A DNA stretch of 64,000 nucleotides from Scleroderma bovista. Its lineage: Eukaryota > Basidiomycota > Agaricomycetes > Boletales > Sclerodermataceae. Under the pieces are notes generated by a model that was given only the letters and a program-made list of their open reading frames with translations, was not told the DNA's origin and did not search any database. Where the stretch lies: the NCBI GenBank assembly GCA_037178675.1, contig JAYMGJ010000050.1, positions 186,001 through 250,000 of the forward strand, written 5' to 3'. Made by a program: the position numbers and the translations under genes. Of this stretch, positions 8,632 to 55,310 are shown one piece after another; position 1 is the first letter of the stretch, and each line of letters begins with the position of its first letter.

Positions 8632-8640
8632 AATATCACC

Positions 8641-11600
8641 ATGTCTAGCGCTCTCGACAAGATGGTCCCCGTGTTCACTGGCTCCAACTGGCAGCAGTGG
8701 CACACCTCTATGCAGGCCTACCTCCGGGCACAAGGCCAATGGTACATTTACTCGACAACACAACCCGTTGCCGGTCACGATGACTGTAAGGAGTGGGACG
8801 ATAACACCGAGAGAGCGCTCGGTAACATCACCTTGCGCCTCGCCCCCTCCATCCAGGTCGCCGTCTCAAACCTCGACAACGTTAAGGACGTCTGGGACCA
8901 CCTCAAGAAGAACTTCGGTGCCCCCAGTATCGGCTCTGCCTACGTTGAGCTTAGCAAGCTCCTGGCGACTACCATTCCCGCTGGTTCCCATCCTGCTCCG
9001 GCTATCACCAAGGTGCTCAGTCACTTCGCTTATCTGAAGGACGCTGGCTTCGAGTTCCCTGCCCCTGTGCAGGCAATGATCATTCTGTGCAAGCTCCCTC
9101 CCACCATGGAGGTTGTAGCTCAAATTCTCAGCCAGACGTCGCCGGATGAGATTAAAAATCTGAAGCCTGACGGGATAGTCAAGGCCGCCACGCTCTCATT
9201 CGAGCAGAAAGGCACCTCTTCACGCACCGGTGGTAAGGGCCCACAGGCCAACAAGCTTAGCGCTGTGAAGCGCAAGCCAGCTGACCCAAAGTTCGCCCAG
9301 CAGCAGCAAGGCGGGTCCAACGGTGGTACGAGCAGAAACGCTCCTGCCCAAGGACAAGGAGGCCGCACACGCCGTGGTGGCAAGAAGGCTCGCGCTCGCC
9401 GTGAGAATGCCCAACAGGCAGCCTTCGCTACATACGTCCACTACGATGGACCAGAGCCCACCGTCGACCCTCGCACCTTGGCCCACACTCCCGGTGCTGC
9501 CCACTATGGCCCCCCCGCATTCGAAAATACCATCAAGGCCTTTGACTTGGCACACCGCTTGGGGGTAGAACCCTCCTGCCAGACCATCCGCACCCTCGAT
9601 CAAGTTGTGTCGTTGGCGAGTGCGAACCTGGACCAGCCCAAGGCCGGTCCCTCCTCGCTGAAGCGCCCTCGTCTTGAGGAGCGCATCACCATGTATGAGG
9701 AGGATGCCATCTCCCTTGGGGATGATGAACCATTCGCCCACGAGCCCTTCACCAACGACGAGTTCGACGAAATCAACGCGATGGTCCTCGACCGCTACAA
9801 TGCGACGTCGATGGCAATGGGCGTGGAGGCCAGCCTTTTCAGGCAAGTACCTTCTGCACGCGTGCTGACCGACACTGACACGCTCCCTTTACATGTGCGC
9901 TTTACGCCGGCACTGTATATAGCGAGCAGTAACTACAATATGTCATGTCGTATCTTGAGAAATGCATATATCTGTTCGTGTTCGCATGAAACAAATGCAC
10001 GCTGTGCTGGCTGTAAGGGAAAAATGGTTGACGATAGCGAATTATCTGGTGCTTTCTGGCTCCTAGACTCTGGCGCATCATGCCACTTTACTGGTGACAT
10101 AGGTGATTTTGCCTCCTATAATGCGCTAAAGCGAGCGCACTACGCCAAAACGGCTAATGGTGTAGCACTGATTGCTGGCATTGGCACGGTATTACTCCGG
10201 TGCCTAGACCACAACTCTGGAGATGAGAAAGTCATTACACTCACCCAAGTGCTCCATATGCCAGGTGCTACTGCACGCCTTGTTTCTATGGGTGAAATGC
10301 TCCAGCGTAACTATAAAGTCACTGGCGATAAGCGAGGCATTAGCCTCATTCATAAAGCTGAACGCCTATGGTTTGGGCCAGACCCAGAAGACAATTGCAA
10401 CGTCATTTTTGGGATTAGATCTATCCCAATAATTAGATCTAACTATATTGCCTCCGTGAGCAAAGTCGATTACGACATTATGCACCGGAGATTCGGGCAC
10501 CCCTCGAAGGAAGTACTCCGACGCACGCAAAAACATACGCAGTGCTTCCCGGAGATCCACTTTCCAACTGAGGATTGTGTTTGCCCTGGATGTGCTGTTG
10601 GCAAGATGCCCAATCAAGCTTTCCCAGAGAACGAAAGACGTGCTTCTAAGCCCTTTGAGCTAGTGCACTCTGATCTCAAATCCTTCCCGGTTACATCGTA
10701 CCGGAAGTTCAAATATGTTATCACCTTCTATGACGACTATACCTCTCACGCCTGGACTATGCCTCTTCACTCCAAAGCTGCAGCGATTACGGCTGCCAAA
10801 GATTTCCTTGAAATGGTGCGAGTCCAACATGATATGCACGTCGTTGGATGGATGTCCGATGCTGGCGGAGAGTATAAATCTGATCTATTTGATCGAGCAC
10901 TCCTTGAGAAAGGAATTAAAATATATCAAAGTGCTCCAAGAACTCCCATGCAGAATGGCCACGCCAAGCGTTTAGGGTGCACTTTCATGGACAAAGCTGA
11001 GTCTATGCGGCATCAAGCCTGCATTCCTGACTCCTGGTGGGAATTTGCATTCGCTCACACAACTCACCTTTACAACCGTACTCCGGTAGCTCGCCTGCGA
11101 TGGTGCACCCCCCATGAAATGCTTAAGGGGGAGATGCCTAACATCGACCACCTACATGTGTTTGGCTGTGGAGCCTTTGTCTACCTCCCAGCCTCGGCTA
11201 GAGCAAATAAGATGGCTCCCAAGTCGGAGCTAATGACCTATGTCGGTGTTGCCCCTGGCAATGAGTGCAACTTTTTGTTCATGCACTCCACCAATGCAGT
11301 GTTTACCGCTGCTCACGCCGTCTTTGACGAGCATCATTTCCCTCACTGCCCCAAAAACAGGCGCGAACCTCTCGAGAACCCTTTTGGAAGGGCAAATCCA
11401 AAACCAGCCACTGATCGACCAGGGAATCCCCCTGATGATACCGACAGTGATGACAATGTGGAACACGACCATGGCTACCCACATCCCCAAGCGCAGGATG
11501 ACGATTCAAAGCGCGAGGAACCTGAGGCTCCTGAGGAAGAGCCTAATCAAATAAATCCTCCCCGTACGCCATCTCCAGTGCCTCCACCGGCACCGAGAAC

Positions 11601-14106
11601 ACCTTCACCGGCGAGAAATCTGCCACCTCCGGCACTGCAGCGCTTTGGCCGAGCTGAACGCTGCCAGAATGCGCCGCAACCCCCTGCAGTGAATATCCCT
11701 GCCCGCCCCCAATGTGAACGTAGAGCGCCATTGCGCCCTGGTAACGTGTATGGTGAGCAGCGACATCCCGTTGAGCAACTCCGGGATATTGAAAGTGCCT
11801 CTCAATGGCGAGAAACAGTGGGTGAGGCCCCTAGGCCCCCACAACCGGACACACCAGACCATATCCCTGGTGGTTTCCCCGACACCTCTGCAACACCCAG
11901 TGAGGAAGATGTGCAAAAGATGTGCGAGGAAGGGGGAGCAAACCTAGTCCATTATCTGATGGGCAAAGCCCTCGAAACCCGCGACCCTCAATACGAGAGT
12001 GTCCGCAACTGGTCCTATAAGCACATTGCTCGCTTACCCCAAGCTGAGCAGAAACTCTGGCAACTTGCTTGCCAAGAAGAGCTCGACGTGCTGCAAAAGC
12101 ACAAAGTCTTTGAGCTAGTTGACCGTCCCTGAGACCGGAAGGTCATTAAGAATTGATGGGTCTTCGATGTAAAGTCGGATGGCTGCAAGAAAGCCTGCTT
12201 AGTAGCAAAAGGCTTCTCCCAGGTCGAGGGATTAGATTTTGACCAGGTCTTCTCACCAGTCGTGCGCTTTGAAACAGTGCGCCTCATGCTTGCGCTTGCC
12301 GCACTTGAGAACTGGTATATTACTGGACTTGACATTCGGAGCGCCTACTTGTATGGCAAGCTCGACGAAGAGATCTATATGTAGAGTTTAAAAGTCCAGT
12401 CCAGTCTGGTTTTTTTGCCTTTTTTGGAAGAGGACCGGACTGGACTGCTTTTGGAAGCCTGGGAATGGTTCATGGACCGCTTAAAGACTGGTCCAAAGTG
12501 GTTGCAACCAGTTTTCAAAAAGACCGGTCCAAAACTGCTAAAAAAACCAGTCCAAACCACTAAAAAACCAGTTTTTTTGCATTTTATTGATGTTTTTCAC
12601 ATCAAAGGTGTGTCAGATAGCATCTAAATACTATTTATAGACTGTAGTAATTATATACAAGTCATTATATATTTATTTGTGCCATATTTCATCCAAAAAG
12701 ATCAGTTTTACACCCCTTAAGACCCACTGCAGGCCAAAATTAGCCTGTAATATAGGGGTTTTTATACCATATATGTATTGCTTACATAATGCGGTTGCAA
12801 CCGGTTGCAACCAGTCTTTTTCATCATTCTCAAAAGTAGGCAACTGGCAACTGCAGTCCGGTTGCAACCAGTCCAGTCCAGTCCAGTTTCTGGTCTTTTT
12901 GCGGTCCTATGGACTGGACTTTTAAACTCTATCTATATGGAACAACCCGAAGGGTTTGCAGTTCCCGGGCAAGAGCGCAAAGTGCTCCGCCTCTGGCATG
13001 CCCTCTATGGCCTCAAACAGGCCGGCCTAGCTTGGTGGCGCACACTCGATGAGTCTCTCAAAGAGCTTGGGTTTGACCGCCTTAAGTCTGAAGCAGGCAT
13101 CTTCTTCTACAAGAAGAAAGGCACCAACATCACCATTGGTATTATCTATGTTGACGACGCACTATTCTGCGGCCCTAACAAGGCTGTTGTTGATGCCATC
13201 AAAGTGCAGTTCATGCGCAAATGGGAGTGCTGAGACCTTGGAGAACCTAAGGAGTTCCTCCACATGCGAATCACTCGCAAAGGTTGCGCTATCCACCTGG
13301 ATCAATGCGCATACCTCCAAAAGGTCATCGAACGCTGCGGCATGCTCAATGCAAAGTCTGCAAGCACCCCACTGCCAGCTGGCTACTATGCTGCCAAAAA
13401 TACAGAGCCTGTTGATGCAGAACTCCGCTCCCGTTTCCAGACGGTTATTGGGTCCCTTCTGTACCTTATGTTAGGCACTAGGCCCGACATTGCCTTTGCA
13501 GTCACGCATCTCTCGCGCCATGCCGCGAACCCATCCCAGGACCACCTGTCCAAAGCGCTTTATATTTGTCGCTACTTGATTGGTACACCTAATTACTCCC
13601 TAGTGTACAATGGTGGATCTGGTGCTGGCCTGATTGCATGCACAGACTCAGATTGGGGATCAGACCCTATCTCTCACCTCTCGCAGACAGGTTTCTACCT
13701 GAAGCTTGCAGATGGCTTGATCAGTTGGACTTCTCATGCACAGAAGACTATTGCGTACTCGTCCACTGAGGCCGAATACATGGCTTTGAGCGATTGCGCT
13801 CGCCAAGTTACCTGGATTTGGAGTCCACTCGGTGAGCTCGGCTATAAGCTGAAAGCTATCCTGATTTGCGGTGATAATCAGGGGTCCATATTCATGGCAT
13901 CCAACCCTGTAACGGAGCCTCACTCCAAGCACATCAACATCCGCTACCATGGAATCTGCAAGTCAGTCGCAAAAGGTAACATAGAACTATTCTTCATTGA
14001 TGGTGCTGAGAATCCCGCCGATCTGCTCACCAAGAACTTACCCCGCGAGAAATTTGCAAAGTTCAGAGCTCAACTAGGCTTACAGTTTCCCTCTGGCAGC
14101 ATCTAG
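8641..14106 (+). pseudogene. copia-2 gag-pol polyprotein, broken
   Basis: The order is Gag, protease, integrase, reverse transcriptase, RNase H, as in Ty1/copia. The first ATG after the leader acceptor is at 8641. Gag begins with a copia-type WQQWHTSMQAYL region, the protease has LLDSGAS at about residue 476, and integrase has the HRRFGHPS...CPGC zinc-binding region near 10480-10590. RT resumes after the MITE with YVDD near 13148, and RNase H has TDSDWG, STEAEY and HINIRYH. Damage includes stops at 12130-12132, 12154-12156 and 13231-13233, a 550-bp MITE at 12382, and the third integrase catalytic residue, Glu in copia-3 (NGHAER), changed to Lys at 10966-10968. The last 280 residues are still open. 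No zinc knuckle was seen in Gag. Confidence 0.92.
12382..12931. mobile_element. hAT-like MITE, copy 1
   Basis: A 550-bp element bounded by TAGAGTTTAAAAGTCC and its exact inverted complement, with an 8-bp TSD, TCTATATG (12374-12381, 12932-12939), inside copia-2 RT. Removing it restores the RT sequence seen in copia-1. TIRs starting TAGAG plus an 8-bp TSD are hallmarks of hAT elements. The ends carry CAGTCC/GGACTG repeats. It has no coding capacity. A second copy lies at 53256-53776. Confidence 0.92.
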
Positions 14107-14819: not shown

Positions 14820-15994
14820 ACGGACACACACACCACAATGTCATGAACAATGCCATAGTCATTGGATAATGTTTGTGCATCTAGGACATTGACGAGTGCC
14901 ATGGAAAGTTCATGGGAACGACAACCTCCGCCACCATCCAAATTATTGTTGCGAGCAGTGCACCTGATGGTAAATGGTAAGTTAAACTGTGTGGATCATC
15001 ACATTGACTTACCGTGGACACCATCCCTGCACCACACCAGTCAATAACACCTGTTTGGGGTAGTCTGCAATGTAGGGGCCGAGTCCATATATAACACGAT
15101 GAAAATGCCCATCTGGACACAATGTGACTGTTGGCTTACTCATGTGTGGCTTCAGTGAGTCCAACACAGCCGCAATTGAGCTATGGAAGAGTTGGCAGCG
15201 AAAGCGGCGAAACGCAGGGTCATTTTTGTGCGCCTCATCAGCTATGTTCAGACAAATGAGTAGTAAAGAATAGATAAAATAGTACCACACCAAACGTACT
15301 TTTGGGAATGGCAAGAAATGCGAGTATTGTTACAGCATCACGGTGTGCCCGGCGGACATTGTTGTGTATATTCCCAAGCGAGAGGTAGAGAGGGTAGTAT
15401 TCCGTACGACCCGTTGCAACCGACACCGTGGTCTTGTCACTACCAAGAACCACTGGCACGAACATTGCACCGTGTGTGTCGGCATCTTTGCCAATGATGT
15501 CCTGAGACCGGCAGGTTCAATATCAGTCACTGCTTCACCAACAATTCAAAACAAATAACTTACAGACTGTTCAAACACCCATTGTCCAGACATCAGGTCA
15601 CATACTTCACGGTGTCCACCTTCATCGATGACGACTTTCGCGGCATAATCAATTTCACCCTTGAAATTGGGGTTTGCGAGTTGATGCTCAAGCACCACCT
15701 TCGGATCGCGGTACCATACATCATACTTGGCGGTCATCCAAGGAGGTGGAAGATCAGGTATGGCACCTGAATATGTCATGGAGAACGACTTCCAAGGGGA
15801 ATCCCCATGGGTTGTAGCGTCGATTGTATCGTACATGTGCTTGTGCGAATGGAATGGTGGATCCTTGTCGCATATCGAAGCCATGATAGCCAGTAATTCG
15901 TTGATCTTGGCGGCGGACATCTGTTCGCGATTGTACAAGAATTGTTGGAAGGCGGCCCTACTCTCATAGGGACTATAGTCATCAGGAGGGGGAC

Positions 15995-16620
15995 TGTCAA
16001 GACCGGTTCTTCACCGATCTGATCTCTACGAGGGGTCTGGGGGTCAGAGGTTGGCCTAGCGGTAAGACCGAGATGCCACATAGCGTAGTCGCGCTTCCCG
16101 AGTAATTAGGAAGGCCGACCGAGGGTTGTACGGAGTGTCTGAGGGTAAACGGTCAACGACCGAGTACTTGTACAAGGGCAGAGACCGAGAGCACGAAGGG
16201 AGAACAGATGAGAAGTATCTTATTCGATATTCGAACTGAAACTACAACAGACCGAGTATCTAGGTATTTATACTGAGTAGAACGGATGAGGCGATGTACG
16301 GGAAGTCGGGATTACCGACGAACGACGAGCGCAGCTGCGCTGCGTGCTGAGTAAGTACGGTAAGTGCGATAACCGGTTTACCGATAGACATTGTGTTAGT
16401 AATGCAACGGGATGGGAACGTATAGTAACCGGAAACGAGAAAGGAAACATATTAGGTAATAGTACAGAGAGACAGAACGGACAACGCGCTCACCGATCGG
16501 TGGCGATACAGGACAGATAGAAAGAAATGGAAAAGGGAGTGCATACAATAGACGGACGGCAAATGCGTGGACGCGATCAGACAATAGGGTACAGGGTGAT
16601 CGGATGTCACGGTCGTGACA
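15995..16620 (-). mobile_element. G-A 3' LTR
   Basis: TGTCAAGACCGG...GTCGTGACA. I counted about 18 differences from the 5' LTR, all transitions and nearly all at CpG, TpG or CpA sites. The polypurine tract CCCTAAGAGGGGGATAC (minus strand, 16637-16621) adjoins it. Confidence 0.95.
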
Positions 16621-16689
16621 GTATCCCCCTCTTAGGGCCGAGCCCACGAGGCTGCAACGCGTATTCCACACTGAATGTGCGTGACCATT

Positions 16690-16784
16690 GTCTGGGTTTG
16701 AAAATCGGTTAGGGCATATTTAAGTCTGGCCTTCGGTGACGGTAACCCAACAAATTTTTTTTTCCATAACACTTCACTTTAATC
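16690..16784 (+). promoter_or_regulatory. Putative promoter and leader of the G-A antisense gene
   Basis: The stretch between the polypurine tract and the antisense ATG contains a TATA-like CATATTTAAG near 16717 and a run of T followed by CCATAACACTTCAC before the ATG. G-B has an equivalent leader (39345-39501) with CCTATAAGTAA. The promoter lies inside the element but outside the LTR. This is inference from position only. Confidence 0.35.
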
Positions 16785-17861
16785 ATGTCTTCTGGCAGCA
16801 ACAACAACGGCAACAACGTCGACTGGACGCGTGCCGCCTCGCCCGAGTTGGAAGGGAAACCGACCGACTCGATACAGGTGCAAATCGCCAAGTTCGATGA
16901 GCAATCGCGAAGACGTCGGGAGCGATTGATGAAGCAGGCGGCCAAACAGGAGGTGAGGAGATTGGCAGAGGAGGCTGCGAAGAAGAAGGCTGAGGAGGAG
17001 GCGAAGAGAGTTGCTGAAGAGAAACGGAAGGCCGAGGAGCAGGCGAAGAAGATCGCCGAGGAAAAGGCGCGAGCCAACTTCGAGGCGAGGCGCAAGGCCG
17101 AAGCAGAGGTGAGGGCGAGGGAGAAGGCCGAGTCGCTAGCGGCTGGCGAGGCGATGAGGGCGCGGTTGGGGCTAGGGCCCAAGGCCAAGGTATGTGGCCG
17201 ATCATTTTAATTTGATTTCGCTGACTTGTTACTTGGTTAGCCGCGACAGGTCACTGCCCGTTCCAACACGGGCATCATGGGGTTCAGGCCCCCATGTGAC
17301 CGATGCCGGCAGAGTGGCGACAGCGGTGGGTGCGAGCTGGCCGACGGAGCGCGTACACCGACGTGCGGTCGGTGTCAACGGTCGAAGGTCAAGTGCACCT
17401 TCGAAGTTTCGACGTCGGCAATGGAGCGGTCGGCGGGTGGAGAGAAAAGGAAGCAGAGCGAGAAGACGGCGGAGGTGAACACGTCGCCGAGGGGAGGTGA
17501 AAAGAGGAAGAGGACGAGGAAGACGGTTGCGAACACCGCGAGTACGGAGGAGATCGAGGCGGCGATGGGAAGCTTCTCGGTGGCAGGGCCATTGAATCGG
17601 CCAGACCCAGTCGCGCTGGTCCTAGACCGCCGACTCGGGGAGCTCGTGGCTGCGATCGACCGCAACACCAGGGAGCTGGTGAAGCTCGGTCGAAAGGTGG
17701 ATGGGGTCACATGGGAGACGAAGAGGGTGGCAGACGCAAGGGACCCGAAGGGCAAGGGCAAAGTGATGCCCGAGGAGAGCGAGGAGCAGCAAGAGTCGGA
17801 TGAGACGGACGGGGAAGGCGAGGAGTCGGGGGATGAAGACGGAGAGGGTGAGTCCAAGTAA
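16785..17861 (+). CDS. Antisense accessory gene of G-A: coiled-coil protein with Zn2Cys6-like cluster
   Basis: Two exons, 16785-17189 and 17241-17861. The intron (17190-17240, GTATGT...TTAG, 51 nt) is in phase 0 and gives a 341-residue protein. Residues ~40-125 are a highly charged Ala/Glu/Lys/Arg coiled coil. Residues 154-187 hold six cysteines spaced C-X2-C-X8-C-X10-C-X2-C-X6-C, close to the fungal binuclear zinc-cluster pattern but with the basic residues in the second half. A Lys/Arg-rich stretch and a Leu-rich segment follow, with an acidic tail. The gene runs opposite to gag-pol, between pol and the 3' LTR. G-B carries a homologue in the same place (39502-40640). Similar predicted proteins occur in mushrooms from memory. 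The function is unknown; DNA or RNA binding is a guess. Confidence 0.75.
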
Positions 17862-17933
17862 ATAGTCGGACAGAACAATTGTATTTAGTTTTTTGTATAC
17901 TATCAATAGACTTGGTTCGGTGACTTAAAAGAC

Positions 17934-20900
17934 TTAGCGTGAGAGGCTTTCTAAGGGGCCTGGCTTAGTCGGATAGGCTTTGTGATAGTCGGCCACGAGT
18001 TCTGATGCGTGTCCTAGCTCGGTCGCGATCAACCAAGATGTTTCTTCGTCGGTACCTTCGTAACCAGCCCATCTAACTAGGTAAAGGAGTGGGCATTGGC
18101 ATCGACGTCGGTCGAACTTTGAATTGAGGATCTCGGTGATCTCGAACTCGGGTTCGCCGTCGACTTCGATGGGAGGTGGTGGAGGTTGTGACCGATTCGG
18201 TATTGTATTCGGTGTCGCTGGTTCGAGCTGTGAGACGTGGAAGACAGGATGGACAGCACGCATAGAGTCGGGAAGACGGATTGTGAATGATAGGGTGCCG
18301 ACTTGGGCGATGATTGGGTAGGGACCAAGATTCTTCTCGGAGAGATTCTTTGATGGTCGGGTGGACCTAAAGTACTTGGCTTTGATGAATACTTGATCAC
18401 CGACTTTGAAATTGGGTGCGGGTGATCTTCTGGCATCAGCAGGGCCTTGGTACCTTTTCTGGGCAGCAGCCATTTCTTCACGTAGGTACTCATGCAATGA
18501 TTCTAAGTCAACTGCGTATTCCCTTGCCCGAGCCGATGAGAGATCGTGCTCAGGGTGCACAGCGAGGTTCGGGTGGTATCCTTTGTTCGCGAAGAACGGT
18601 GATACACCAGTCGTGGCGCTAGGGGCATTGTTGTAGGCGAACTCGGCGAGAGGTAGTAAGTCCGACCAGTTGTCCTGCTGGTAGTTGCAGTACATCCTGA
18701 GGTATTGCTCGAGTGTTTGGTTAGCTCGCTCGGTCTGTCCGTCACCTTCTGGGTGATAGCCCGAAGTGAAATGTAATTTCATATCTAAGGCCTTACCGAG
18801 TGATCGGAAGAAGTGCGAAACAAACTCTGAGCCTCGGTCAGACGTTACATGCGCGGGTACGCCGTGCTTAGCGAAGACGTGGAGTAGGAAGAGCTGTGCG
18901 AGCTCGGGGGAGGTTATTGTATCGTGAGTCGGAATGAATATGGCTTGCTTTGATAGTCGGTCAATAACTACCAGTATGGCTGTGAAGCCGGATGAGGACG
19001 GGAGTTGCTCGATGAAATCCATCGAAATGGAATTCCATGGTCGGTCAGGGACCGGTAATTGCTTGAGCATCCCATAGGGTCGGTGACGTGGCGTCTTAGC
19101 TCGGGCACAGGCCGTGCAGGACTTGACGTAGTCTTTTACGTAGGTACGAATTCCTGGCCATGTATATTCGCGACGAATGAGCTCTAAAGTGCGGTTCTGA
19201 CCGAAGTGTCCCGATAGGGGATGGTCATGCTTGTATCTGAGGACACGAAGACGTAGGTCATCGGCCTCGGGGACGTACATGCGGCCATCGAGACGTAGGT
19301 AACCAGTCTCATCGGTCGACCATCGGGGGTTCAATGTGTCCGAGAGGTGGGCTTTAGCGATTGGATCGGTCGGGAGGTTGGCTAGGATATTGGCGTGAAG
19401 ACGCTCGACGTCCATGAGTGCACTAGCTCTGAGTACTGGGGCGTGTAGGCATGTCGTGCGAAGGGAGTTGGTGAGCTGTTCAGCCGTGAACACCGGTCGG
19501 AGGTTCTGTGGGTTGACTCGGGCAAAGCCCCTATCCCCCTCTTTGGGGTAGACGTCCCAGCGTCTAGTCAAGGCGTCGGGCTTTGCACCAAGTTTACCAG
19601 GTCGGAAACGAATGATCAGGTTAAAGGAGGAAAGGTATTCTGACCATCGGGCTTGCCAACAGGTGAGAACCTTAGAAGTAGAAAAGTACTCCAAATTTTT
19701 ATGGTCGGTCACGACGTCAATCGGGAAGGCAGGGCCCTCTAGGTAATGACGCCAGGTCTTGAAGGCCTCGAAAATAGCGAGGAGCTCCTTGTCGTGAGTA
19801 TCATAATTCAGCTCGGGCGCGGTCAGAGTGCGAGAATAGAACGTGATCGGTCGTATCTCATCATCTGAACCAGTGATGGATAGAATACCGGCGATCGCGT
19901 AGTCCGACGCGTCGGTCTCAACTGTCAGTTGGGCGCCTGGCTGGAAATGGGTGAGGATGGGAGCTGTAGTGAAGGCCTCCTTGAGTTGGTTGAATGACCG
20001 TCGGCAGACGTCAGAAAAGTCCCAGGGGGCATCTTTCCGTGTCAACCGAGTTAGTGGGACCACTATATCAGAGTAATTGAATATAAATCGACGGTAAAAG
20101 TTCGCGAAGCCCAGGAAGGACTGAATGTCCTTCACCTTGCGAGGCTCGGGCCAATCGCAGATTGTCTTGACTTTGTCTTGCGACATTGTCAAACCGTTGG
20201 GGGAGAGGAAGTACCCGAGGTATTCCACCGAGTCCAAATGGAACTCACACTTTTCGGGTTTGGCATAGAGCTTGTGCTGGCGGAGTCGCCGAAGCACTTC
20301 CCGAACGTGCTTGGTATGGTCCTCCATGTTGTCCGAGTAGACTAGGATGTCGTCGAGGTAGACTACGACGCAGACATTGAGCATGTCCGCGAAGACCGAG
20401 TTGACAAACCGCTGAAAAGCTGCAGGGGCATTGGTGAGACCGAAGGGCATCACCTGCCACTCATACGAGCCATAGCGAGTCCTGAAGGCGGTTTTCCACT
20501 CATCACCTTCGGCAATGCGAACCAGATGGTAAGCATGTCGAAGATCGATTTTAGTGTAGACCTTCGCCCGACTCGGGGAGTCGAGTAGGTCGGAGATGAG
20601 AGGTAGAGGGTAACGATCCTTCTTTGAGATCTTATTGAGTCCTCGGTAGTCGATGCAAAGTCGGAGAGAGCCGTCCTTCTTCTTGACGAAGAGGACAGGG
20701 GCTGCATGGGAGGATGAGGTTGGACGGATGAAACCAAAGCGAAGGTTTTCGTCGATGAATGCCCGAAGGGTTTCGAGCTCGACGGGGGAGAGAGAATAGA
20801 GTCTTCCGGGCGGTAATGGCGCTCCTTCTTCCAGTTCTATCTTGAGGTCATATTCCCGATGAGGCGCGAGTACCGATGCTTTCGCCTTACTAAAGACGTC

Positions 20901-21590
20901 GGCAAAGTCGTGGTATGCCTCGGGGACAGAGGAAAGGTCGGGAGCAGCGTCGACCGACGCAGCGTGAAAACTGCTGTCAGGCTTCAGCTGAATAGAGAAC
21001 TGTTGAGAGCCATCTAGCTGACAAGCCTTCAGAAAGGCTGCAGTGTTGATGAGAGCGATAGGAGGTGCCCGAAGACCGAGAGCCTGAGGCGGGTCGGTCA
21101 GAGAAGGAGACGAGACTGACGTAGCATCGAGTCTCAATGCGCTCGGTGAGGGCGCTACAAGGTTGGGGGGTGAGCTCGGGGTTGGCACTTGCTGCGTAGA
21201 TGTTCTGAACTTAATACTGCTCAATACCCAGTCAATCGACGGATTGTATCGGGTGAGCCAGTTGTGTCCGAGAACGATCTTACAGTCAGAGTCCAACGGG
21301 GTGACATAAAATGTCATCGGGGTGACGTCGCCAGAGGGAAAGCGGATGGGTAGATCGGTTGCTTCAGTGATTATGGTGGTGGTGGTACCGTCGAATAGAC
21401 GGAGAACGATCAGGGATACCGAGTAGCGTGAAAGAGTGTTCATATTGGCAAATGACGGATCTACAAAACAGTGGGTAGAACCCGAATCTACTAACGCAGG
21501 GAAAGAAGGCATAGTATGGTCAACAATTGTTACAGAGGGTCGGAGAGAATTGGGGTCGGAAAGAGCGGCTGCGTTGAGTCGGGCCTCCAT
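17934..21590 (-). CDS. G-A Pol polyprotein (protease, RT, RNase H, integrase, chromodomain)
   Basis: 1218 residues counted from the ATG at 21590; in vivo it is probably a Gag-Pol fusion made by -1 frameshifting at 21653. Domains in order: aspartic protease DSGSTHCFVD (residue ~35), RT with YLDD (~411-414), RNase H with ETDASDY (~558), and the integrase HHCC finger (HFGQNRT...CTACARAK). The catalytic core has Asp ~857, Asp ~917 and Glu ~953, the D,D(35)E spacing. A C-terminal chromodomain (LLYLVRWAGYEGTDEETSW) follows. The architecture is that of a chromovirus. Chromodomains can steer integration to modified chromatin, which would fit this nested landscape. No stop or missing catalytic residue was seen. 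Confidence 0.95.
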   Translation of the reverse strand: MEARLNAAALSDPNSLRPSVTIVDHTMPSFPALVDSGSTHCFVDPSFANMNTLSRYSVSLIVLRLFDGTTTTIITEATDLPIRFPSGDVTPMTFYVTPLDSDCKIVLGHNWLTRYNPSIDWVLSSIKFRTSTQQVPTPSSPPNLVAPSPSALRLDATSVSSPSLTDPPQALGLRAPPIALINTAAFLKACQLDGSQQFSIQLKPDSSFHAASVDAAPDLSSVPEAYHDFADVFSKAKASVLAPHREYDLKIELEEGAPLPPGRLYSLSPVELETLRAFIDENLRFGFIRPTSSSHAAPVLFVKKKDGSLRLCIDYRGLNKISKKDRYPLPLISDLLDSPSRAKVYTKIDLRHAYHLVRIAEGDEWKTAFRTRYGSYEWQVMPFGLTNAPAAFQRFVNSVFADMLNVCVVVYLDDILVYSDNMEDHTKHVREVLRRLRQHKLYAKPEKCEFHLDSVEYLGYFLSPNGLTMSQDKVKTICDWPEPRKVKDIQSFLGFANFYRRFIFNYSDIVVPLTRLTRKDAPWDFSDVCRRSFNQLKEAFTTAPILTHFQPGAQLTVETDASDYAIAGILSITGSDDEIRPITFYSRTLTAPELNYDTHDKELLAIFEAFKTWRHYLEGPAFPIDVVTDHKNLEYFSTSKVLTCWQARWSEYLSSFNLIIRFRPGKLGAKPDALTRRWDVYPKEGDRGFARVNPQNLRPVFTAEQLTNSLRTTCLHAPVLRASALMDVERLHANILANLPTDPIAKAHLSDTLNPRWSTDETGYLRLDGRMYVPEADDLRLRVLRYKHDHPLSGHFGQNRTLELIRREYTWPGIRTYVKDYVKSCTACARAKTPRHRPYGMLKQLPVPDRPWNSISMDFIEQLPSSSGFTAILVVIDRLSKQAIFIPTHDTITSPELAQLFLLHVFAKHGVPAHVTSDRGSEFVSHFFRSLGKALDMKLHFTSGYHPEGDGQTERANQTLEQYLRMYCNYQQDNWSDLLPLAEFAYNNAPSATTGVSPFFANKGYHPNLAVHPEHDLSSARAREYAVDLESLHEYLREEMAAAQKRYQGPADARRSPAPNFKVGDQVFIKAKYFRSTRPSKNLSEKNLGPYPIIAQVGTLSFTIRLPDSMRAVHPVFHVSQLEPATPNTIPNRSQPPPPPIEVDGEPEFEITEILNSKFDRRRCQCPLLYLVRWAGYEGTDEETSWLIATELGHASELVADYHKAYPTKPGPLESLSR

Positions 21591-21649
21591 AGGTGCACAG
21601 TCGGGAACAACGCAACTCCCACTCTGTGCAGAGTCTCGGGAGTTGCTAT

Positions 21650-23002
21650 CTATTTTTTTGCCTCGGTGGAGGCCGTCGGTTTGGCTTCCGACGTGTTCGT
21701 GGTAGAGGCAGTAGCTGCCCTAGCCTTGGCTGCTCGAGAGCCTGACTTGGGGCAGTCCTTGGCCTTGTGGCCAGTTGCTCCACAGAACATGCACAGATTC
21801 ATGTTGAACCTGCGCTTGCGTTCCTCAGAGGTCAGCTTGCCGTCCTTGCCGAGCTTGTCCGAAAGCTCAGCAGTCTTGCCCGACTTGTTGGCTTTCTGAG
21901 TCGGGGTTGACGACAAAGAGGACTGGGCAGTGTTGCCCGAGGATTTACCCTTGTCGGTCTTACCCGACTTGGTGTTGGGGGTGTTGGTACTAGTGCTGGT
22001 AGAGGTCTTATTCTGACGAGCGACCTCTTCCTTGCATTCCCAATATCGGGCATCGATCTCCTGGGTAAGGACGCGAAGACCGTTCAGAGTGCGCGGTTTA
22101 CCGACATGGCTTATCTTGTCCTTGATTCGGTCGGGGAGACCTGTGTAGAAGTGATGACACAGGGCGCCATCGCCGTAGCCCCGAACCTGGGACACGATAT
22201 GGTTGAAGTCAACCATGTATCGATTGGCACGATGGTTTTCCTTCATACGGAGGTGGTCGAGCTGATGCTCGGCGTCGGCAACAGGGTCGTGGGGACCGAA
22301 GGTGGTTTGGAGTTCAATGACAAACTCTTCCCAATCGGTCATCCAGATCGGACGGTTAATGGGATCTCCTGCACTGAGTAGGTCTGGCTCGAACCATTCG
22401 AGAGCCATTCCTTTGAGGTACGATTGCGCGAACGTGACCTTGGTTCGGTCAGTGCGAAAAGCCTTCGGTTGGTCCTGGAAGTTGAGCTCGCACTGGACTA
22501 GGAATGTGCGCAACTTCTTTGGATCGGTCCCGTCGAAGGTGTCGGGTTCGCGTACCTTGGTGCGAGACGAAGATTCAGATGAGCATGAAGAACGCGCGAG
22601 TCTGTCGATAGCGATGGAGAGGTTGTTAAAGATGACTAGACCGGCCTCTTCTTGGTCGGGGATGCCTTCAATAGGGTCTTCACCGCCATCATCAGGGTTT
22701 GGATCGTCGGGGTCGTCGGGACCATCACCTCCGGGACCATCGTCACCGGGATGGTCATCACCTAGGTCATCGCCGAGATCTTCGACGAAGGCCCCAGGTG
22801 GGCGACGCTGAGCGGGGGAGGAGGCTCTCCGAGCGGAGAAACCTTGGAATTGGGAGACAGAGTCGGGTGAGCGCCTGAGGCTAGTCAGGGTGCTCAAGGC
22901 AGCAGCCCGACGAGTGTTGGATGCTGAGGGTTCTGGGTTGTTTGCGCAAGCAGTGCGCGAGCGAGTTTGGATTGTCCTGGACATAGATGGTTGTGAACTC
23001 AT
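21650..23002 (-). CDS. G-A Gag
   Basis: 450 residues from the ATG at 23002, 23 bp after the 5' LTR. It has an N-terminal acidic Pro/Asp/Gly-rich segment and a retrotransposon capsid-like region (FLVQCELNFQDQ, YLKGMALEWFEPDL, YMVDFNHIVSQV). A CCHC zinc knuckle, CMFCGATGHKAKDC, lies near residue 405. It ends EAKK-stop, with the slippery run directly before the stop. The product would assemble the particle and package RNA. Confidence 0.93.
   Translation of the reverse strand: MSSQPSMSRTIQTRSRTACANNPEPSASNTRRAAALSTLTSLRRSPDSVSQFQGFSARRASSPAQRRPPGAFVEDLGDDLGDDHPGDDGPGGDGPDDPDDPNPDDGGEDPIEGIPDQEEAGLVIFNNLSIAIDRLARSSCSSESSSRTKVREPDTFDGTDPKKLRTFLVQCELNFQDQPKAFRTDRTKVTFAQSYLKGMALEWFEPDLLSAGDPINRPIWMTDWEEFVIELQTTFGPHDPVADAEHQLDHLRMKENHRANRYMVDFNHIVSQVRGYGDGALCHHFYTGLPDRIKDKISHVGKPRTLNGLRVLTQEIDARYWECKEEVARQNKTSTSTSTNTPNTKSGKTDKGKSSGNTAQSSLSSTPTQKANKSGKTAELSDKLGKDGKLTSEERKRRFNMNLCMFCGATGHKAKDCPKSGSRAAKARAATASTTNTSEAKPTASTEAKK
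21653..21659 (-). promoter_or_regulatory. -1 frameshift slippery site, A AAA AAA, at the G-A gag stop
   Basis: In the gag frame the end reads GCA AAA AAA TAG. Slipping back one base bypasses the UAG and stays open into the pol ATG frame at 21590 without another stop. G-B has the same arrangement at 50939-50945. Confidence 0.8.
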
Positions 23003-23012
23003 ACAAGACTAG

Positions 23013-23023
23013 AGTTTGAATAT
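23013..23023 (-). promoter_or_regulatory. Putative self-priming site of G-A
   Basis: The minus-strand sequence ATATTCAAACT, two bases after the 5' LTR, is complementary at 10 of 11 positions to AGTTCGAATAT in the LTR (minus strand from 23268). That sequence lies 35 nt after the TATA box TATAAATA (23303). The single mismatch is a CpG to CpA change. The arrangement matches the self-priming described for Tf1 of fission yeast, in which the mRNA 5' end serves as primer. Confidence 0.6.
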
Positions 23024-23025
23024 AC

Positions 23026-23651
23026 TGTCAAGACCGGTTCTTCACCGATCTGATCTCTACGAGGGGTCTGGGGGTCAGAGGTTGGCCTAGCGGTAAGACC
23101 AAGATGCCACGTAGCGTAGTCGTGCTTCCCGAGTAATTAAGAAGGCCGACCGAGGGTTGTACAGAGTGTCTGAGGGTAAACAGTCAACGACCGAGTACTT
23201 GTACGAGGGCAGAGACCGAGAGCACGAAGGGAGAACAGATGAGAAGTATCTTATTCAATATTCGAACTGAAACTACAACAGACCGAGTATCTAGGTATTT
23301 ATACTGAGTAGAACGGATGAGGCGATGTACGGGAAGTCGGGATTACCGACGAACGACGAGCGCAGCCGCGCTGTGCGCTGAGTAAGTACGGTAAGTGCGA
23401 TAACCGGTTTACCGATAGACATTGTGTTAGTAATGCAACAGGACGGGAACGTATAGTAACCGGAAACAAGAAAGGAAACATATTAGGTAATAGTACAGAG
23501 AGACAGAACGGACAACGCGCTCACCGATCGGTGGCGATACAGGACAGATAGAAAGAAATGGAAAAGGGAGTGCATACAATAGACGGACGGCGAACGCGTG
23601 GACGTGATCGGACAATAGGGTACAGGGTGATCGGATGTCACGGTCGTGACA
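23026..23651 (-). mobile_element. G-A 5' LTR
   Basis: 626 bp, the same length as the 3' LTR. In sense direction it has the TATA box TATAAATA (23303-23296) and a predicted start of transcription at about 23268. It ends GAACCGGTCTTGACA. Confidence 0.95.
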
Positions 23652-34269: not shown

Positions 34270-34283
34270 GGTTATGAGCCCTG
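34270..34283 (+). promoter_or_regulatory. Primer-binding site of copia-3 (half initiator tRNA-Met)
   Basis: GGTTATGAGCCCTG directly after the LTR, the same as at 8258. Confidence 0.85.
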
Positions 34284-38648: not shown

Positions 38649-39344
38649 TGTCAAATCCGGGTCCACTCCGGACAAAGTCCGGACGAAATCCTGTTAAGGT
38701 CTTGAACAAGGGAGGGGCAGAGATTGGCCTAGGCCAGGTATTGCTCAGGGGGCAGGATAGACCGATTGGGTACAACGACAGAAGTCAAGCGTTGACCCCT
38801 TGCGTGGATTCCGGTCAAGAGAGAGCAGGGACGAGAGATACGGAGTGGGTGACTTAGTTGATTTCAGACTGAAGATACAAGACTGAGTACAGGACTTTAT
38901 ATACGGAGATGGAAGTAACCTGAGTATATACGGTGACACGTAAACAACCAAAAGCCGGAACAAGGGAACGAGAGTGAAAGGAATAGGTCGGTAAAATAAA
39001 CGGAGACAGGAAAATAAATGGGGACAGGAAAATAAATGGGGACAGGAAAATAAACAGGGACAGGAAAATAAACGGGGAGGAAAATAAACGGGGAGCCAGG
39101 CTTGAAGCAGACACGGGGATCTGGAAGTATACAGGGGCAACGGAACGGGTGCAGGAACAATGCGGTAAGTGGAACTAAACCGGATTGGAGAAACAGATAG
39201 GGTCGAGTACGGACTCAACAGATACTATGTGCGCGAGTGTAGTCCGGAACCGGGGATGAAGCGCAAGGGCCAGGATCGAGCTGTATAGCTGCGATGAAGC
39301 CAGAGTAACTGGGAGAGCGACTGGAACTGGACATGGTCGTGACA
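38649..39344 (-). mobile_element. G-B 3' LTR
   Basis: TGTCAAATCCGGG to GGTCGTGACA, with five or more GGGGACAGGAAAATAAA tandem repeats (39000-39090). The polypurine tract beside it (minus, about 39361-39345) is CCTAAGTGGGGGATAC. Confidence 0.93.
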
Positions 39345-39501: not shown

Positions 39502-40640
39502 ATGTCTTCCGCATCCAAGCAGCCTACCCCCACTACCCTCATCGTGCCCGGCCAGCAAGACTGGACGAAGGCCAAGATGCCGGAGCTGCAATCGGACGAT
39601 GACAACGACGACAACATGGCTCAGGCGAAGGCGGAAGAGTGGCATCGATGCAAGCAGGCGAGGCGGGAAGAGAAGGCGCGCCGGGAATGTGAGGAGGCCG
39701 AGCGCAAGGAGCGAGAGGAGGCAGAGAAGAGGGTCCGGCTCCTGGCGGAGCGGGAGAGGATCCTTGCAGAAAAGGCCCGGCTGATGGCAGAGGACAAGCG
39801 CAAGGCGGCAGAGGAACATGCGCACGAGGCGGCAGAGAAGAGAGCCTGGGTGGTGGCTCAGCAAAAGGCCAAGGAGGATGCAGAGCGGAAGGAGCGAGAG
39901 GAGATCGCCCGGATCCAGGCGGAGAGGGAGCAGGCGTATGCGGAGAAGAAAATGCGTGAGGAGGCGACCGGAAAGCAGAGAGCAGGGGAGGCGATGAAGA
40001 AGAGGCAGCGCGAGGAGAACGCGGTGGCCAGGCCCAGTGGGAACCGGTCACAGGAGGCCAGGTAAGTACCGGTCGATTTATTCTTTTGTTTTGTTTTTTG
40101 CTAACCTTGCCTTGCAGCTGCGTGCGGTGTGCACGCCTAGGTGCCCCTTGCAAGAGGGATGCCGAAAACCCCCGGCAGCGCGCGTGCATACGCTGCGCGT
40201 CGATGAAGGATAAGTGCGAGTGGCCGGAGGTAGAAGGGAGTGGGTCCAGGTCCAGGAAGGGGAAGGGGAAGGCAGTGGCGACGTCTCCCAGAGCCGGCGA
40301 GAAGAAACACACCAAGAAGTTGGTCGCCAAGATCGACAGAGATGTGGAGATTGTCGCAGGTCCGTCCAGGTCTGGGTCCACGCTCATCGAGCGTATGGAC
40401 CAACTGATCGAGGCAGTAGAGAACCTTGCATCGGCGCAGTGGTACACGGCGGCAGTGGTCTCTGCATCCAGACAGTTGCTGGGCACACTTGTGGACGAGT
40501 GTGCCCTGTTCGGATTCGAGGAGACCGGAGATGCCGGAGTGGAGTCAACAGACGGAGAGGAGGTCGACCAGGAGGAGGTTGAAGGGGAAGTGACCGGGCT
40601 TCATGAGGACAATGAGGCGCACGCCTCGGAGGATGCATGA
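39502..40640 (+). CDS. Antisense accessory gene of G-B: coiled coil plus Zn2Cys6-like cluster
   Basis: Exons 39502-40061 and 40118-40640. The intron is 40062-40117 (GTAAGT...TTGCAG, 56 nt), splitting a Ser codon; product 360 residues. A long Glu/Arg/Lys/Ala coiled coil covers roughly residues 45-175. Six cysteines at 188-220 are spaced C-X2-C-X6-C-X11-C-X2-C-X6-C, within the fungal Zn2Cys6 range. A basic GKGKAVATSPRAGEKK stretch aligns with the corresponding part of the G-A protein. A Leu-rich segment (LIERMDQLIEAVENL) and an acidic tail follow. It is intact although the host element is dead, and is homologous to 16785-17861. Confidence 0.75.
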
Positions 40641-40908: not shown

Positions 40909-42949
40909 CTACTGCGTTACCAAGCTCGGTGGCGAGTAGCCATGAGGTTTCCTCGTCAGTACCTTCATAACCGGTCCACCGGACCAAGTACAGGAGTTTG
41001 CAAGTTTTGCGTCAACAGTCGATCTTGGAGTCGAGAATCTCGGAGATCTTGAACTCCGGCTCGCCGTCAACTTCGACCGGTGGGGGCGGTGGTTGGGGAT
41101 GGAGTTGGGCGCAGCTGGTTCTAGCTGTGAGACGTGGAAGACCGGATGAACTGCGCGCATAGAATCCGGAAGACGGAGAGTGAAAGAGAGCGAACCCACT
41201 TGGGCTATAATCATATATGGCCCTAGATTCTTTTCTGATAGTTTTTTGGATGGTCGTGTGGAACAGAAATATTTTGCTTTTACATATGCTTGGTCGCCAA
41301 CCTTGAAGTCCGGTGCCGGAGTATGCTTGGCATCTGCCGGACCTTGATAGCGGATCTGAGCGTTGGCCATCTCTTCACGGAGGTAACTGTGCAGTGAGTC
41401 TAGGTCAACTGCGTATTCGCGGGCCCAGGTGGAGGTCATATCACATTCCGGGTGTACTGAGATATTAGGGTGATAACCTTTATTTGCGAAGAAGGGAGAA
41501 ACTCCAGTAGTTGCACTAGGTGCATTATTGTACGCGAACTCTGCAAGCGGTAAGAGATCTGCCCAGTTGTCCTGCTGGTAATTGCAGTAACACCGGAGGT
41601 ACTGTTCGAGTGTTTGGTTGGATCGCTCGGTTTGGCCATCACCTTCCGGGTGATAGCCGGAAGTGAAGTGTAGGCGCATGTCGAGTGCCTTTCTGAGTGA
41701 CCGGAAGAAGTGGGATACGAACTCAGTACCTCGGTCAGAGGTGACATGGGCGGGGACTCCGTGTTTGGAGAACACGTGGAGTAGGAATAGTTTCGCGAGT
41801 TCCGGGCTGGTGATGGTATCGTGAGTTGGAATGAAGATGGATTGCTTTGAGAGCCGGTCTACGACGACTAGGATGGCTGTGAAGCCGGAAGATGTGGGGA
41901 GTTGCTCTATAAAATCCATGGAGATGGAATTCCAGGGCTTCTCCGGGATGGGGAGCTGTTTAAGCAACCCATAGGGACGATGGCGCAGTGCTTTAGCTCG
42001 GGCACAGGTCGTGCAGGTCCGGACATAGTTTGTAACGAACGACCAGAGACCTGGCCAGGTGTAGTCGCGACGGATGAGCTCCAGGGTGTGATTCTGTCCA
42101 AAGTGCCCAGAGGTGGGGTGGTTGTGCTTATACTGGAGAACTCTGAGGCGAAGGTCCTTTGAGTCTGGTACGTAGATGCGACCATGGAGCCGGAGGAGAC
42201 CGGACTCGTCTACTGACCACCGCGACTCGGCGGTATCAGAGAGGTGAGCTTGGGCAATAGGGTCAGTGGGGAGGGCGGATAGGATGTCTGAGTGAAGGGT
42301 CTCGATGTCCATGATGTCAACTGCCCTTAGGATAGGGAGCTCTAGGTACGTAGCGCGAAGGGAGTGAGCTAGTTGCTCTTGGGTGAACACCAGCCGGAGA
42401 TTGTGGGGGTTAACCTGGGCGTAGCTGCTATCCCCCTCTTTGGGGTAGATGTCCCATCGTCGAGTCAGGGCATCCGGCTTAGCACCAAGCTTACTGGGGC
42501 GAAAACGAATAACTAAGTGGAACTGGGACAAGAATTCCGACCACCGGGCTTGCCGGCATGTAAGAACTTTTGATGTGGAAAAGTATTCCAGGTTTTTGTG
42601 GTCGGTGACAACGTCGACCGGGGTAGCGGAGCCCTCCAGATAGTGGCACCATGACCGGAATGCCTCAAAGATCGCCAGCAGTTCCTTGTCGTGCATGTCA
42701 TAGTTCAGCTCCGGGGCTGTTAAGGTCCGGGAGTAGAATGTGACTGGACGTAGTTCGCCATCGGCGCAGGTAATGGAGAGTATACCGGCGACAGCGTAGT
42801 CGGAAGCATCGGTCTCCACGGTAATTGGAGAGTCTGGAATGAAATGTGTGAGGACTGGCACGGTGGTGAAGGCCCACTTGAGCATGTTAAAGGAGCGACG
42901 GCACTCCTCAGAAAAATTCCAAGGGGCGTCCTTCCGGGTGAGCCGCAGG
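40909..42949 (-). pseudogene. G-B pol, 3' part: RT end, RNase H, integrase
   Basis: From LRLTRKDAPWNF at the palindrome edge, through RNase H (VETDASDYAVAG), the integrase finger (HFGQNHT...CTTCARAK) and the catalytic core (MDFIEQL, TSDRGTEF, GQTERSNQ), to VFHVSQLEPAAPNSIPN. A frameshift near 41090 throws the chromodomain out of frame; its remnants (YLVRWTGYEGTDEETSW) are still readable in another frame around 40925-40990. It is closely related to G-A pol. Confidence 0.9.
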
Positions 42950-42989
42950 TAGTTCAGTCACAAACCCTCGCAAAAGTGGGTCATCGGAC

Positions 42990-53776: not shown

Positions 53777-53974
53777 GTCAATACCATCCCCAGTCGCATA
53801 TCATCCCCATCAGAAGCCCTTCCCTTCCCTCCTGCATCCTGCCTGAAGGTGTGCAGCACATCCCCCTGAGGAGATTAAATACCAGAAACGCAAAGGAAGA
53901 CCACCACTCGCATTTTGCTGTCATTTGGTGTTGATTGTTGGTTGTTCTGACCTCTTCCCTCACTTAGGCGCACA

Positions 53975-55236
53975 GCGGTGAGCTTGCCATCCTTCCCGAG
54001 CTTGTCGGTCAGGTCCGGTTTAGAGGGACCGGATGTGGTAGGTTTGTTGGCCGGTTTGGAGGAACCGGACAAGGCGTTGCTACCAGTCTTGGATTTCTCC
54101 TGACCGGATTTAGTCGAGTTGCCCCCAGAGTTGAGGGACTTGGTAGCAGGGGTGGACAACTGACTTTTAGAGGTCCGGGAGATTTCATCCTTATGCTCCC
54201 AATAGCGCACATTGATCTCCTGCGCCAGGGCACGGGTACCATCCAACGTCCAAGGCTTCCCTATCCGGGAAAGCTCGTCCTTGATCCGGTCAGGTAGACC
54301 GGAGTAGAAGTAGTGTCGGAGTGCGCCGTCACCGTAGCCCCTGATCTGAGAGGCCAGCCGGTTGAAGTCGACGATGTACTGTGTGACACGGTGGCTATCC
54401 TTCATCTGAAGGAGGTCAAGCTGATGCTCCGCATCAGCGACCGGGTTGTGCGGTCCAAAGGTGGACTGGAGCTCCGCGACGAAGGCGATCCAGTTGTCCA
54501 TCCAGTGGGGACGGTTAGTCAGATTGGCGGACTCGAGAAGGTCCGGTTCAAACCACTCTAATGCCATACCTTTTAGGTATGACTGGGCGAAAGTTATTTT
54601 AGCGCGGTCCAGACGGAAAGCTTTTGCGCGATCTTGAAAACAAAGTTCGCATTGGACCAGAAAGGTCCAGAGTTTCTTGGGGTCAGTGCCGTCGAAGGTG
54701 TCCGGGTCTCGGACTTTGGCACATGAAGAAGAGGACTCATTGGTCCGTCGAGAGGAGCGGGAGAGGCGGTTGACAGTGAGGGCGAGGTTATGGAAGACCG
54801 CTAGATTAGCGTCTAGTTCTTCTGTAGCGTCGAGGAACTCTTTGTCATCGTCATCATCATCACCGTCGTCGCTGGGGTCATCTGGGTCATTACCGGGACC
54901 ATCGTCTTCGGGGCCGAACCACTGGTAACGGCCGGGCTTGCGATGATCCAGGCTGGGGTCAAGGTGGTAGGGGAACCTATCACCAGGAACGGATCCTTGG
55001 TGAACAGGGTCTGCAGAGCCACAAAGGCTCTGCGATGCAGCGTCGCGATGCAGAGTCGACAACACTGGTCTGGGGGAGCGAGCTGTGAAGCTCCGAAACT
55101 GGCTTACTGAAACCGGAGGTTGCCTACAACTAGACATAGCCTGTTGAGCGGCAGAGAGACGAAGATTGTTGACTGCTCCTGCTTCTTCAGCAAGTGCTGC
55201 CTCAGTACAAGCGCGAGTACGGGTAGTCATGGTCAT
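53975..55236 (-). pseudogene. G-B gag, 5' part
   Basis: ATG at 55236. It has capsid-like blocks as in G-A (FLVQCELCFQDR, YLKGMALEWFEPDL, YIVDFNRLASQI) and ends GKLTA at the LTR-A insertion. The apparent extension of this frame to 53875 is read-through into LTR-A. Confidence 0.92.
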
Positions 55237-55308: not shown

Positions 55309-55310
55309 TG

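Follow-up and report, generated by a model that had tools for sequence, protein, structure and literature searches.

A spliced antisense gene in chromoviruses of Scleroderma bovista suggests that a retrotransposon makes its own GAL4-like regulator

The 64,000-nucleotide stretch of the Scleroderma bovista genome analyzed here (assembly GCA_037178675.1, contig JAYMGJ010000050.1, positions 186,001 to 250,000 of the forward strand; hereafter the window, with coordinates counted from its first letter) contains a long terminal repeat (LTR) retrotransposon, element A, in which the interval between pol and the 3' LTR holds an additional gene, named ORFX, on the opposite strand. According to our analysis, ORFX is almost certainly a real gene; its conservation and predicted splicing suggest that the element produces a regulator of its own. 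We consider it probable that ORFX regulates the element that carries it, and we lean toward a GAL4-like accessory factor, which would act in the nucleus as a DNA-binding dimer and regulate the element family that carries it, as the best explanation.

The antisense gene and its host element

ORFX of element A (ORFX-A) is encoded on the plus strand by two exons of 405 and 621 nucleotides (nt) and yields a protein of 341 residues. Exon 1 (16785..17189; 135 codons) encodes an N-terminal leader and a Lys/Glu-rich coiled coil; it is followed by a 51-nt intron (17190..17240, GTATGT..TTAG, with the branch site CTGAC at 17221-17225) and by exon 2 (17241..17861, including the stop codon at 17859-17861). 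The ATG at 16785 lies 164 nt from the 3' LTR, and 72 nt separate the end of the gene from the pol stop, the two genes being convergent, tail to tail. A TATA box (TATTTAAG, 16717..16724, plus strand), which may act as a promoter, is located 61-68 nt upstream of the ATG.

Element A (15995-23651, minus strand) has an LTR pair, gag, and pol, and inspection of the sequence revealed the target site duplication (TSD) GGGAC on its left (15990..15994) and right (23652-23656) sides. The 3' LTR (15995..16620, minus strand), with TGTCA..TGACA ends (TG..CA), and the 5' LTR (23026..23651, minus strand) are each 626 nt long and 97.1% identical across a 629-nt match; a putative polypurine tract (16621..16640, minus strand; tatcccccTCTTAGGG on the plus strand) adjoins the former. 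On the minus strand, gag (21650..23002) encodes a Ty3_capsid domain and a CCHC knuckle, and pol (17934..21590; 1218 codons) encodes protease, reverse transcriptase, RNase H, integrase, and chromodomain, and the element is intact in outline. The chromodomain, the last domain of pol, is divergent: the Pfam Chromo alignment covers 52 of 53 positions with an E value of 0.001 and 19.4 bits, below the cut-off of 25.1. The C-terminal 88 residues of pol matched the PDB chromodomains of MPP8, CDYL, CBX5, Clr4, Swi6, and Rhino (phmmer, E values from 0.002 to 0.4, the best being 0.0019), and the two top PDB scores for this C-terminus belonged to designed dTor repeat proteins, which are unrelated. Judged by the predicted chromodomain after the integrase, element A is a chromovirus.

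An earlier reading of the window from its letters alone (the sequence-only reading) had described a gene with two exons, 341 residues, and six cysteines in near-Zn2Cys6 spacing, placed in antisense in the interval from pol to the 3' LTR of a chromovirus. The host, the position, the strand, and the coordinates of the gene were all confirmed, and the cysteines were found in the spacing CX2CX8CX10CX2CX6C.

Conservation and selection across genomic copies

Scanning of the 51.8-Mb assembly revealed at least 150 stretches matching ORFX-A and at least 136 matching ORFX-B, its counterpart in element B of the window; both counts are lower bounds in which exons are counted separately. From the 42 best-ranked A places, 40 were fetched (of the other two, one is the window copy and one lies close to the end of a contig). 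In all 40 loci pol lies opposite ORFX, and in 39 its C-terminus is present and ends 76-103 nt beyond the ORFX match; in the fortieth (L048) pol is internally deleted.

The alignment of these loci with the window copy has 38 rows, three loci (L020, L039, and L042) having been dropped for a missing or rearranged exon 1. The GT..AG intron is kept in every one of the 38 copies and lost in none, as is a [CT]TGA[CT] branch site, whose A is at position -17 or -16; the TATA box, as TATATAAG, TATTTAAG, or TATAAAG, is kept in 37. Exon 1 and exon 2 each have a length divisible by three in 36 of 38 copies, and intron lengths span 51-62 nt. No copy has lost any of the six cysteine codons (228/228 codons), with a mean site identity to the window copy of 0.87. 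Differences from the window copy at the first, second, and third codon positions amount to 0.080, 0.069, and 0.243 in exon 1 and to 0.093, 0.054, and 0.230 in exon 2, i.e., they are 2.5 to 4.3 times more frequent at the third position than at either of the others. The intron, branch site, exon lengths, and third-position excess show that ORFX is not a product of chance. The retention of the intron also agrees with the argument of the sequence-only reading that an intron read from the antisense transcript is not erased by retrotransposition.

Twenty-two of the 38 copies are intact, and among them the ratio of nonsynonymous to synonymous substitution rates (dN/dS) of ORFX has a median of 0.127 (220 pairs), with no pair reaching 1; for pol, 35 pairs from 10 of these loci gave 0.123. 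These estimates leave out the 16 copies with stops or frameshifts and pairs with dS outside 0.03-1.5. The ratio of sums over 210 shared pairs (21 of 231 were dropped for too little pol or no valid estimate) was 0.126 for ORFX and 0.154 for pol. Such values indicate that the predicted protein is under purifying selection of a strength like that of pol. The loci were picked by similarity to the ORFX protein, which favors conserved copies, related copies are not independent, and only ORFX-bearing elements were sampled; however, such a choice would not by itself produce intact introns or an excess at third positions.

Diverged families and relatives

Element B of the window is broken open by other repeats, and ORFX-B sits in it at the same place as ORFX-A in element A. 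Its 3' LTR (38649..39344, minus strand) and 5' LTR (55309-56004) are 96.0% identical over 696 nt, with the TSD ACAAA, and gag is found at 53875..55236 on the minus strand. ORFX-B consists of exon 1 (39502..40061), a 56-nt intron (40062..40117, GTAAGT..GCAG), and exon 2 (40118..40640), all on the plus strand; exon 2 encodes the canonical cluster CX2CX6CX11CX2CX6C, and the spliced protein has 360 residues. The gene converges with a pol fragment (40909..42885, minus strand) that has 73.7% DNA identity to pol of element A over 17982-20055. The aligned part of ORFX-A and ORFX-B is 29% identical (BLASTP, E value of 1e-5, low-complexity filter off).

Ten further loci resemble ORFX-B or a third family, C, and nine of these have the cysteine pattern and an opposing pol; in the tenth (L049), which ends at a contig end, the pattern was unmatched. 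Spliced models exceed 300 residues in seven of the nine (not in L056 and L058), and introns of 42-57 nt lie just before the cluster. A TATA-like box was found upstream of ORFX-B and in eight B/C loci, and the tatccccc of the polypurine tract of element A recurs in the element of ORFX-B and in eight B/C loci. Overall, 49 of the 50 loci fetched have pol opposite ORFX, and the remaining one is truncated. The place of the intron in the protein plan is common to families A, B, and C, but its exact position is not: in A it has phase 0 and lies 18 codons before the first cysteine, whereas in B and C it has phase 2 and lies directly before it. Exact homology of the intron across families was therefore rejected.

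Protein searches gave 26 matches for ORFX-A and 12 for a B-like protein of Scleroderma citrinum, and a six-member profile, with 7990 candidates scored, gave 154, of which the best 120 were listed. Among the matches listed, all those bearing an organism name belong to S. citrinum (Boletales), and the others are jgi/ena proteins, mostly of 180-220 residues. Nine of the latter were inspected: five are exon-2 frames, three (P0097, P0113, and P0116) read through from exon 1 into the intron, P0113 and P0116 entering it right after the same PKPK/PKLK stretch, and one (P0024) is without a cluster. Thirteen annotated S. citrinum proteins (223-385 residues) extend from the coiled coil to the cluster with no translated intron between them; thus, the gene models of the annotators presumably splice as in ORFX. 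Scleroderma citrinum has A-like, B-like, and C-like ORFX proteins, and at least five of its listed members are named Zn(2)-C6 fungal-type in UniRef. The search of fungal proteomes that the sequence-only reading had called for has thus found homologues, by name in S. citrinum; the genomic copies lie antisense beside pol, and, the RNA part aside, the homologues keep both the frame and this recurrent position.

The window contains a second chromovirus (58544-63315; pol at 58544-62317) with a clear chromodomain (E value of 5e-15), in which searches with ORFX-A and ORFX-B gave no ORFX match; apparently, not every chromovirus carries the gene. ORFX is an accessory gene of a basidiomycete chromovirus lineage, with at least three diverged families (A, B, and C).

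Predicted protein organization

The six-cysteine cluster of ORFX-A (17295..17396, plus strand; Cys 154, 157, 166, 177, 180, and 187) has a first loop of X8, the loop of family A, in comparison to the canonical X6 of ORFX-B. GAL4-type Zn2Cys6 clusters have the spacing CX2CX6CX5-12CX2CX6-8C. This spacing is present in ORFX-B and in nine of the ten B/C-like loci, L056 having an extra upstream cysteine and L049 being unmatched. Foldseek searches with two AlphaFold models returned GAL4, Leu3, or PUT3 domains in nine of nine matches, each of them weak individually. In alignments of 13 and 6 rows (A, B, C, and S. citrinum), the six cysteines, the P, R, second G, and K of an SPRGGEK motif, and V.GP are invariant, and in the 6-row alignment so are the W, P, and L of an N-terminal DWTKA.TPEL motif. 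It is very probable that the six-cysteine region forms a GAL4-like cluster.

Downstream of the cluster, at 17484..17504 on the plus strand, the SPRGGEK motif is followed by the basic stretch KRKRTRK, a likely nuclear localization signal. A 45-residue helix, a probable dimerization coiled coil, follows at 17607..17741 (AlphaFold helix 123-167; predicted local distance difference test of the block 83-98), and the protein ends in an acidic tail (17772..17858) recognized in the sequence. An N-terminal coiled-coil helix was predicted in the C-type relative P0092, the AlphaFold model of A covering the part without exon 1. Together, these features suggest a GAL4-like protein plan consisting of an N-terminal coiled coil, the cluster, a basic stretch, a second helical region, and an acidic tail.

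As a separate observation, four copies (L023, L032, L035, and L037) have TGA at the cluster codon matching 17379-17381, where 22 of the 38 copies have CGA (the Arg of CQRSK). This fits CpG deamination, and both shared descent and repeated change are possible.

Divergence of the promoter and gene

The distance comparison included 21 intact copies (L034, with no homologous LTR, was left out). Median pairwise differences were 0.056 for the LTR, 0.053 from the polypurine tract to the TATA box, and 0.042 for the end of pol, in comparison to 0.188 from the TATA box to the ATG, 0.138 for ORFX, 0.327 for its intron, and 0.182 for the gap between ORFX and pol; third-position differences were 0.254 in exon 2 of ORFX versus 0.080 at the end of pol. 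The promoter and gene thus form a cassette whose divergence is about three to six times that of the flanking LTR and pol. Among the 210 pairs, 44 combine a difference below 5% in the LTR and below 4% at the end of pol with one above 11% in ORFX; the reverse pattern (ORFX below 5%, with LTR above 10% or pol above 6%) was found in none of the 210. For example, the pair L017 and L025 shows differences of 0.8% in the LTR and 1.5% at the end of pol, but 37% in the intron. The dS of ORFX is more than twice that of pol in 180 of 210 pairs. Distances of the LTR correlate with those of pol at r 0.76, of ORFX at 0.46, and of the intron at 0.12, and distances from the TATA box to the ATG correlate with those of ORFX at 0.84.

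Tree comparisons support an exchange of this cassette only in part. In approximately unbiased (AU) tests with 22 rows, including L034, the ORFX data reject a 10-row pol clade (p 0.0006), but so do the LTR data (p 0.0008), so that a single common history does not simply hold for LTR and pol either. A 7-row ORFX clade was rejected neither by the pol data (p 0.21) nor by the LTR data (p 0.12) in these tests. The clades were named after the trees had been seen, and resolution of the LTR tree is poor, L034 being placed on a spuriously long branch; the claim of a swap rests mainly on the contrast in distances. Template switching between co-packaged RNAs is a mechanism of recombination, and exchange of the promoter-gene cassette in this way fits the divergence pattern best. 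We offer only tentatively the idea that a GAL4-like regulator, with its promoter and intron, constitutes an exchangeable cassette, swapped as lambdoid phages swap their immunity regions.

Proposed function and alternative explanations

In the mechanism that we propose, ORFX would be transcribed from its antisense TATA promoter and then spliced, and the protein would be imported into the nucleus via the basic stretch, dimerize through the helical region, and bind DNA. It would act in trans on element DNA, either the LTR or the ORFX promoter, and the dimer may regulate its own element family, much as HBZ does for human T-cell leukemia virus (HTLV) type 1. Only the antisense transcript would be spliced, and the intron would survive each round of transposition because the sense RNA, and not the spliced antisense RNA, is reverse transcribed. 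The acidic tail makes activation (of the LTR, or against silencing) somewhat likelier than repression.

Several results weigh against a GAL4-like regulator. The weakest point is that the zinc-cluster half-site does not appear clearly enriched in the LTR. The numbers of CGG half-sites exceeded those of dinucleotide shuffles in the LTRs of element A (31 versus 22.4 and 30 versus 22.0) and of element B (29 versus 20.3 and 32 versus 17.5). Inverted CGG..CCG pairs numbered 7 versus 2.2 in the left LTR of A, reached by 1 of 200 shuffles, and 5 versus 2.4 in the right one, reached by 25 of 200. However, the same CGG z value is reached by 12-14% of the 640-nt stretches of the window in the case of three LTRs and by 1.8% in the case of the remaining one; CGG half-sites were therefore rejected as targets in the LTRs, the local background giving a comparable excess. 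In addition, the best Pfam score of ORFX against PF00172 was 14.5 bits and did not reach the gathering score of 21. Finally, in wider sets of 45 and 30 rows, cysteines 3, 5, and 6 are present in all rows, but the first one occurs in 37 of the 45 and 15 of the 30, missing mostly through gaps in partial frames, and these counts slightly lower the odds of a GAL4-like cluster and, marginally, those of the regulator explanation.

The alternative that survives best, although we consider it unlikely, is a copy-number repressor, in which the ORFX protein, possibly together with the antisense RNA, lowers expression or transposition of resident elements and a swapped cassette lets a newcomer escape. The antisense proteins HBZ and APH are described as downregulating 5' LTR transcription (PMC10186651), and cassettes do differ between elements with close LTRs and pol ends in the 44 pairs mentioned above. 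Nevertheless, the LTR is not exchanged together with ORFX, versions show hardly any variation in the basic loop that separates cysteines 5 and 6, dN/dS reaches 1 in no pair, and the protein has an acidic tail instead of a known repressor motif.

A cofactor for integration targeting or chromatin tethering, working with the divergent integrase chromodomain, is less probable still. The DNA-binding-like architecture, the weak score of the pol chromodomain against Pfam, and the nested elements crowding the window would suit such a role; however, to our knowledge chromodomain integrases target without a partner such as ORFX. It is highly improbable that the antisense RNA alone matters, through double-stranded RNA or interference, with the protein incidental. 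This possibility has been proposed for plant antisense ORFs (PMC7264820), but it is at odds with pol-like purifying selection, exon lengths in multiples of three, and the complete set of cysteine codons. A host gene recently caught by the element, or a chance pair of open frames, has the least to recommend it: each minus-strand frame is also open through composition (median 130-161 codons), but at least three diverged families carry ORFX in the same place, S. citrinum has proteins of all three types, and pol lies opposite in nearly all loci.

The predicted DNA-binding fold, the promoter, the strand-fixing splice site, and natural versions on matched backbones make the idea of a regulator directly testable. 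If it is true, a retrotransposon controls itself through a GAL4-like factor; moreover, the intron serves as a natural label showing that the reverse-transcribed species is not the antisense RNA.

Other repeats in the window

The strongest local excess of CGG/CCG in the window was found at about 26100-27300 and 29300-30400. Adjoining the pol fragment of element B is a near-perfect inverted repeat of about 7.7 kb (42950-50642; 98.4% to its own reverse complement), AT-rich and composed of internal tandem repeats, whose inner arms (44597-46746 and 46843-48992) are 100% complementary and 96 nt apart. Three related copia-type elements or fragments (8593-12132, 34035-38048, and 56493-58162), about 88-92% alike, carry Retrotran_gag_2, Pol_BBD, and integrase domains. 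Diverged arrays of short tandem repeats lie at 2700-4100 and 7400-7890, the second matching the first in inverse orientation, and long inverted and direct repeats (about 91-99%) at 25420-26685, 29270-30480, and 51115-53255.

Comparison with known systems

Antisense genes beside pol are known from several LTR retrotransposons, and their role is described as still unknown (PMC7264820, PMC11963269). In plants, Retand carries one between pol and the 3' LTR, whose TRP28 protein is described as a putative DNA-binding protein (PMC11963269), and Grande (gene23) and RIRE2 have antisense genes at the same position (PMC7264820). ORFX is similar to these Tat/Ogre/Retand antisense ORFs in place, direction, retention in most copies, and a predicted DNA-binding or nuclear protein; the Grande gene has its own promoter, and ORFX has a TATA box (PMC7264820, PMC11963269). 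Unlike the host of ORFX, Retand belongs to a plant lineage of non-chromoviruses. TRP28 (PF04195) was absent from ORFX in the Pfam search at E values up to 1, and the main texts of PMC7264820 and PMC11963269 do not use the word intron, nor do their passages on the plant genes describe a zinc cluster.

The sequence-only reading had regarded a spliced antisense gene of this kind as a fungal counterpart of the plant genes that could be a self-regulator or a targeting factor. The gene is real, but a fungal antisense gene at this position had already been published, namely brtn of the Boty-like Gypsy elements of Botrytis cinerea, also located between pol and the 3' LTR (Zhao et al., 2011, cited by PMC7264820 and PMC8365987). 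Both are extra antisense genes of fungal LTR elements in the same interval; however, the host of brtn is an ascomycete and that of ORFX a basidiomycete, and the likeness rests on the described position and strand of brtn. The legend of a figure in a chromovirus survey (PMC2864245) gives Tcn1-like elements an additional ORF of unknown function, which is likened to ORFX by this description only.

HBZ and APH of HTLV-1 to -4 are likewise antisense genes of retroelements; their transcripts are spliced, their proteins regulate the 5' LTR, and HBZ is a nuclear regulator with a basic leucine zipper (bZIP) (PMC10186651). The 3' LTR itself drives their expression, while ORFX has its TATA box outside the LTR, and they either have or lack a bZIP domain; the Pfam search gave no bZIP match in ORFX.

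Among the papers listed in searches of open-access literature, none has a title or abstract describing ORFX, and the main texts of papers on transposable elements of Laccaria and of Coniophora/Boletales do not contain the word antisense. Within that literature, four features are new: a basidiomycete chromovirus as the host, the retention of the intron in all copies that could be aligned, the probable GAL4-like fold, and the proposed exchange of the cassette. In the comparison of folds, ORFX resembles GAL4, HAP1, Leu3, PUT3, and Pho7 in its six-cysteine cluster, the following helix, and the acidic tail; in P0021 it is the first half of the Pfam profile that aligns with the second half of the cluster, whereas in ORFX-A and L054 the whole cluster is matched in the normal order. 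Unlike GAL4-type factors, ORFX is encoded by a retrotransposon and has an N-terminal coiled coil before the cluster.
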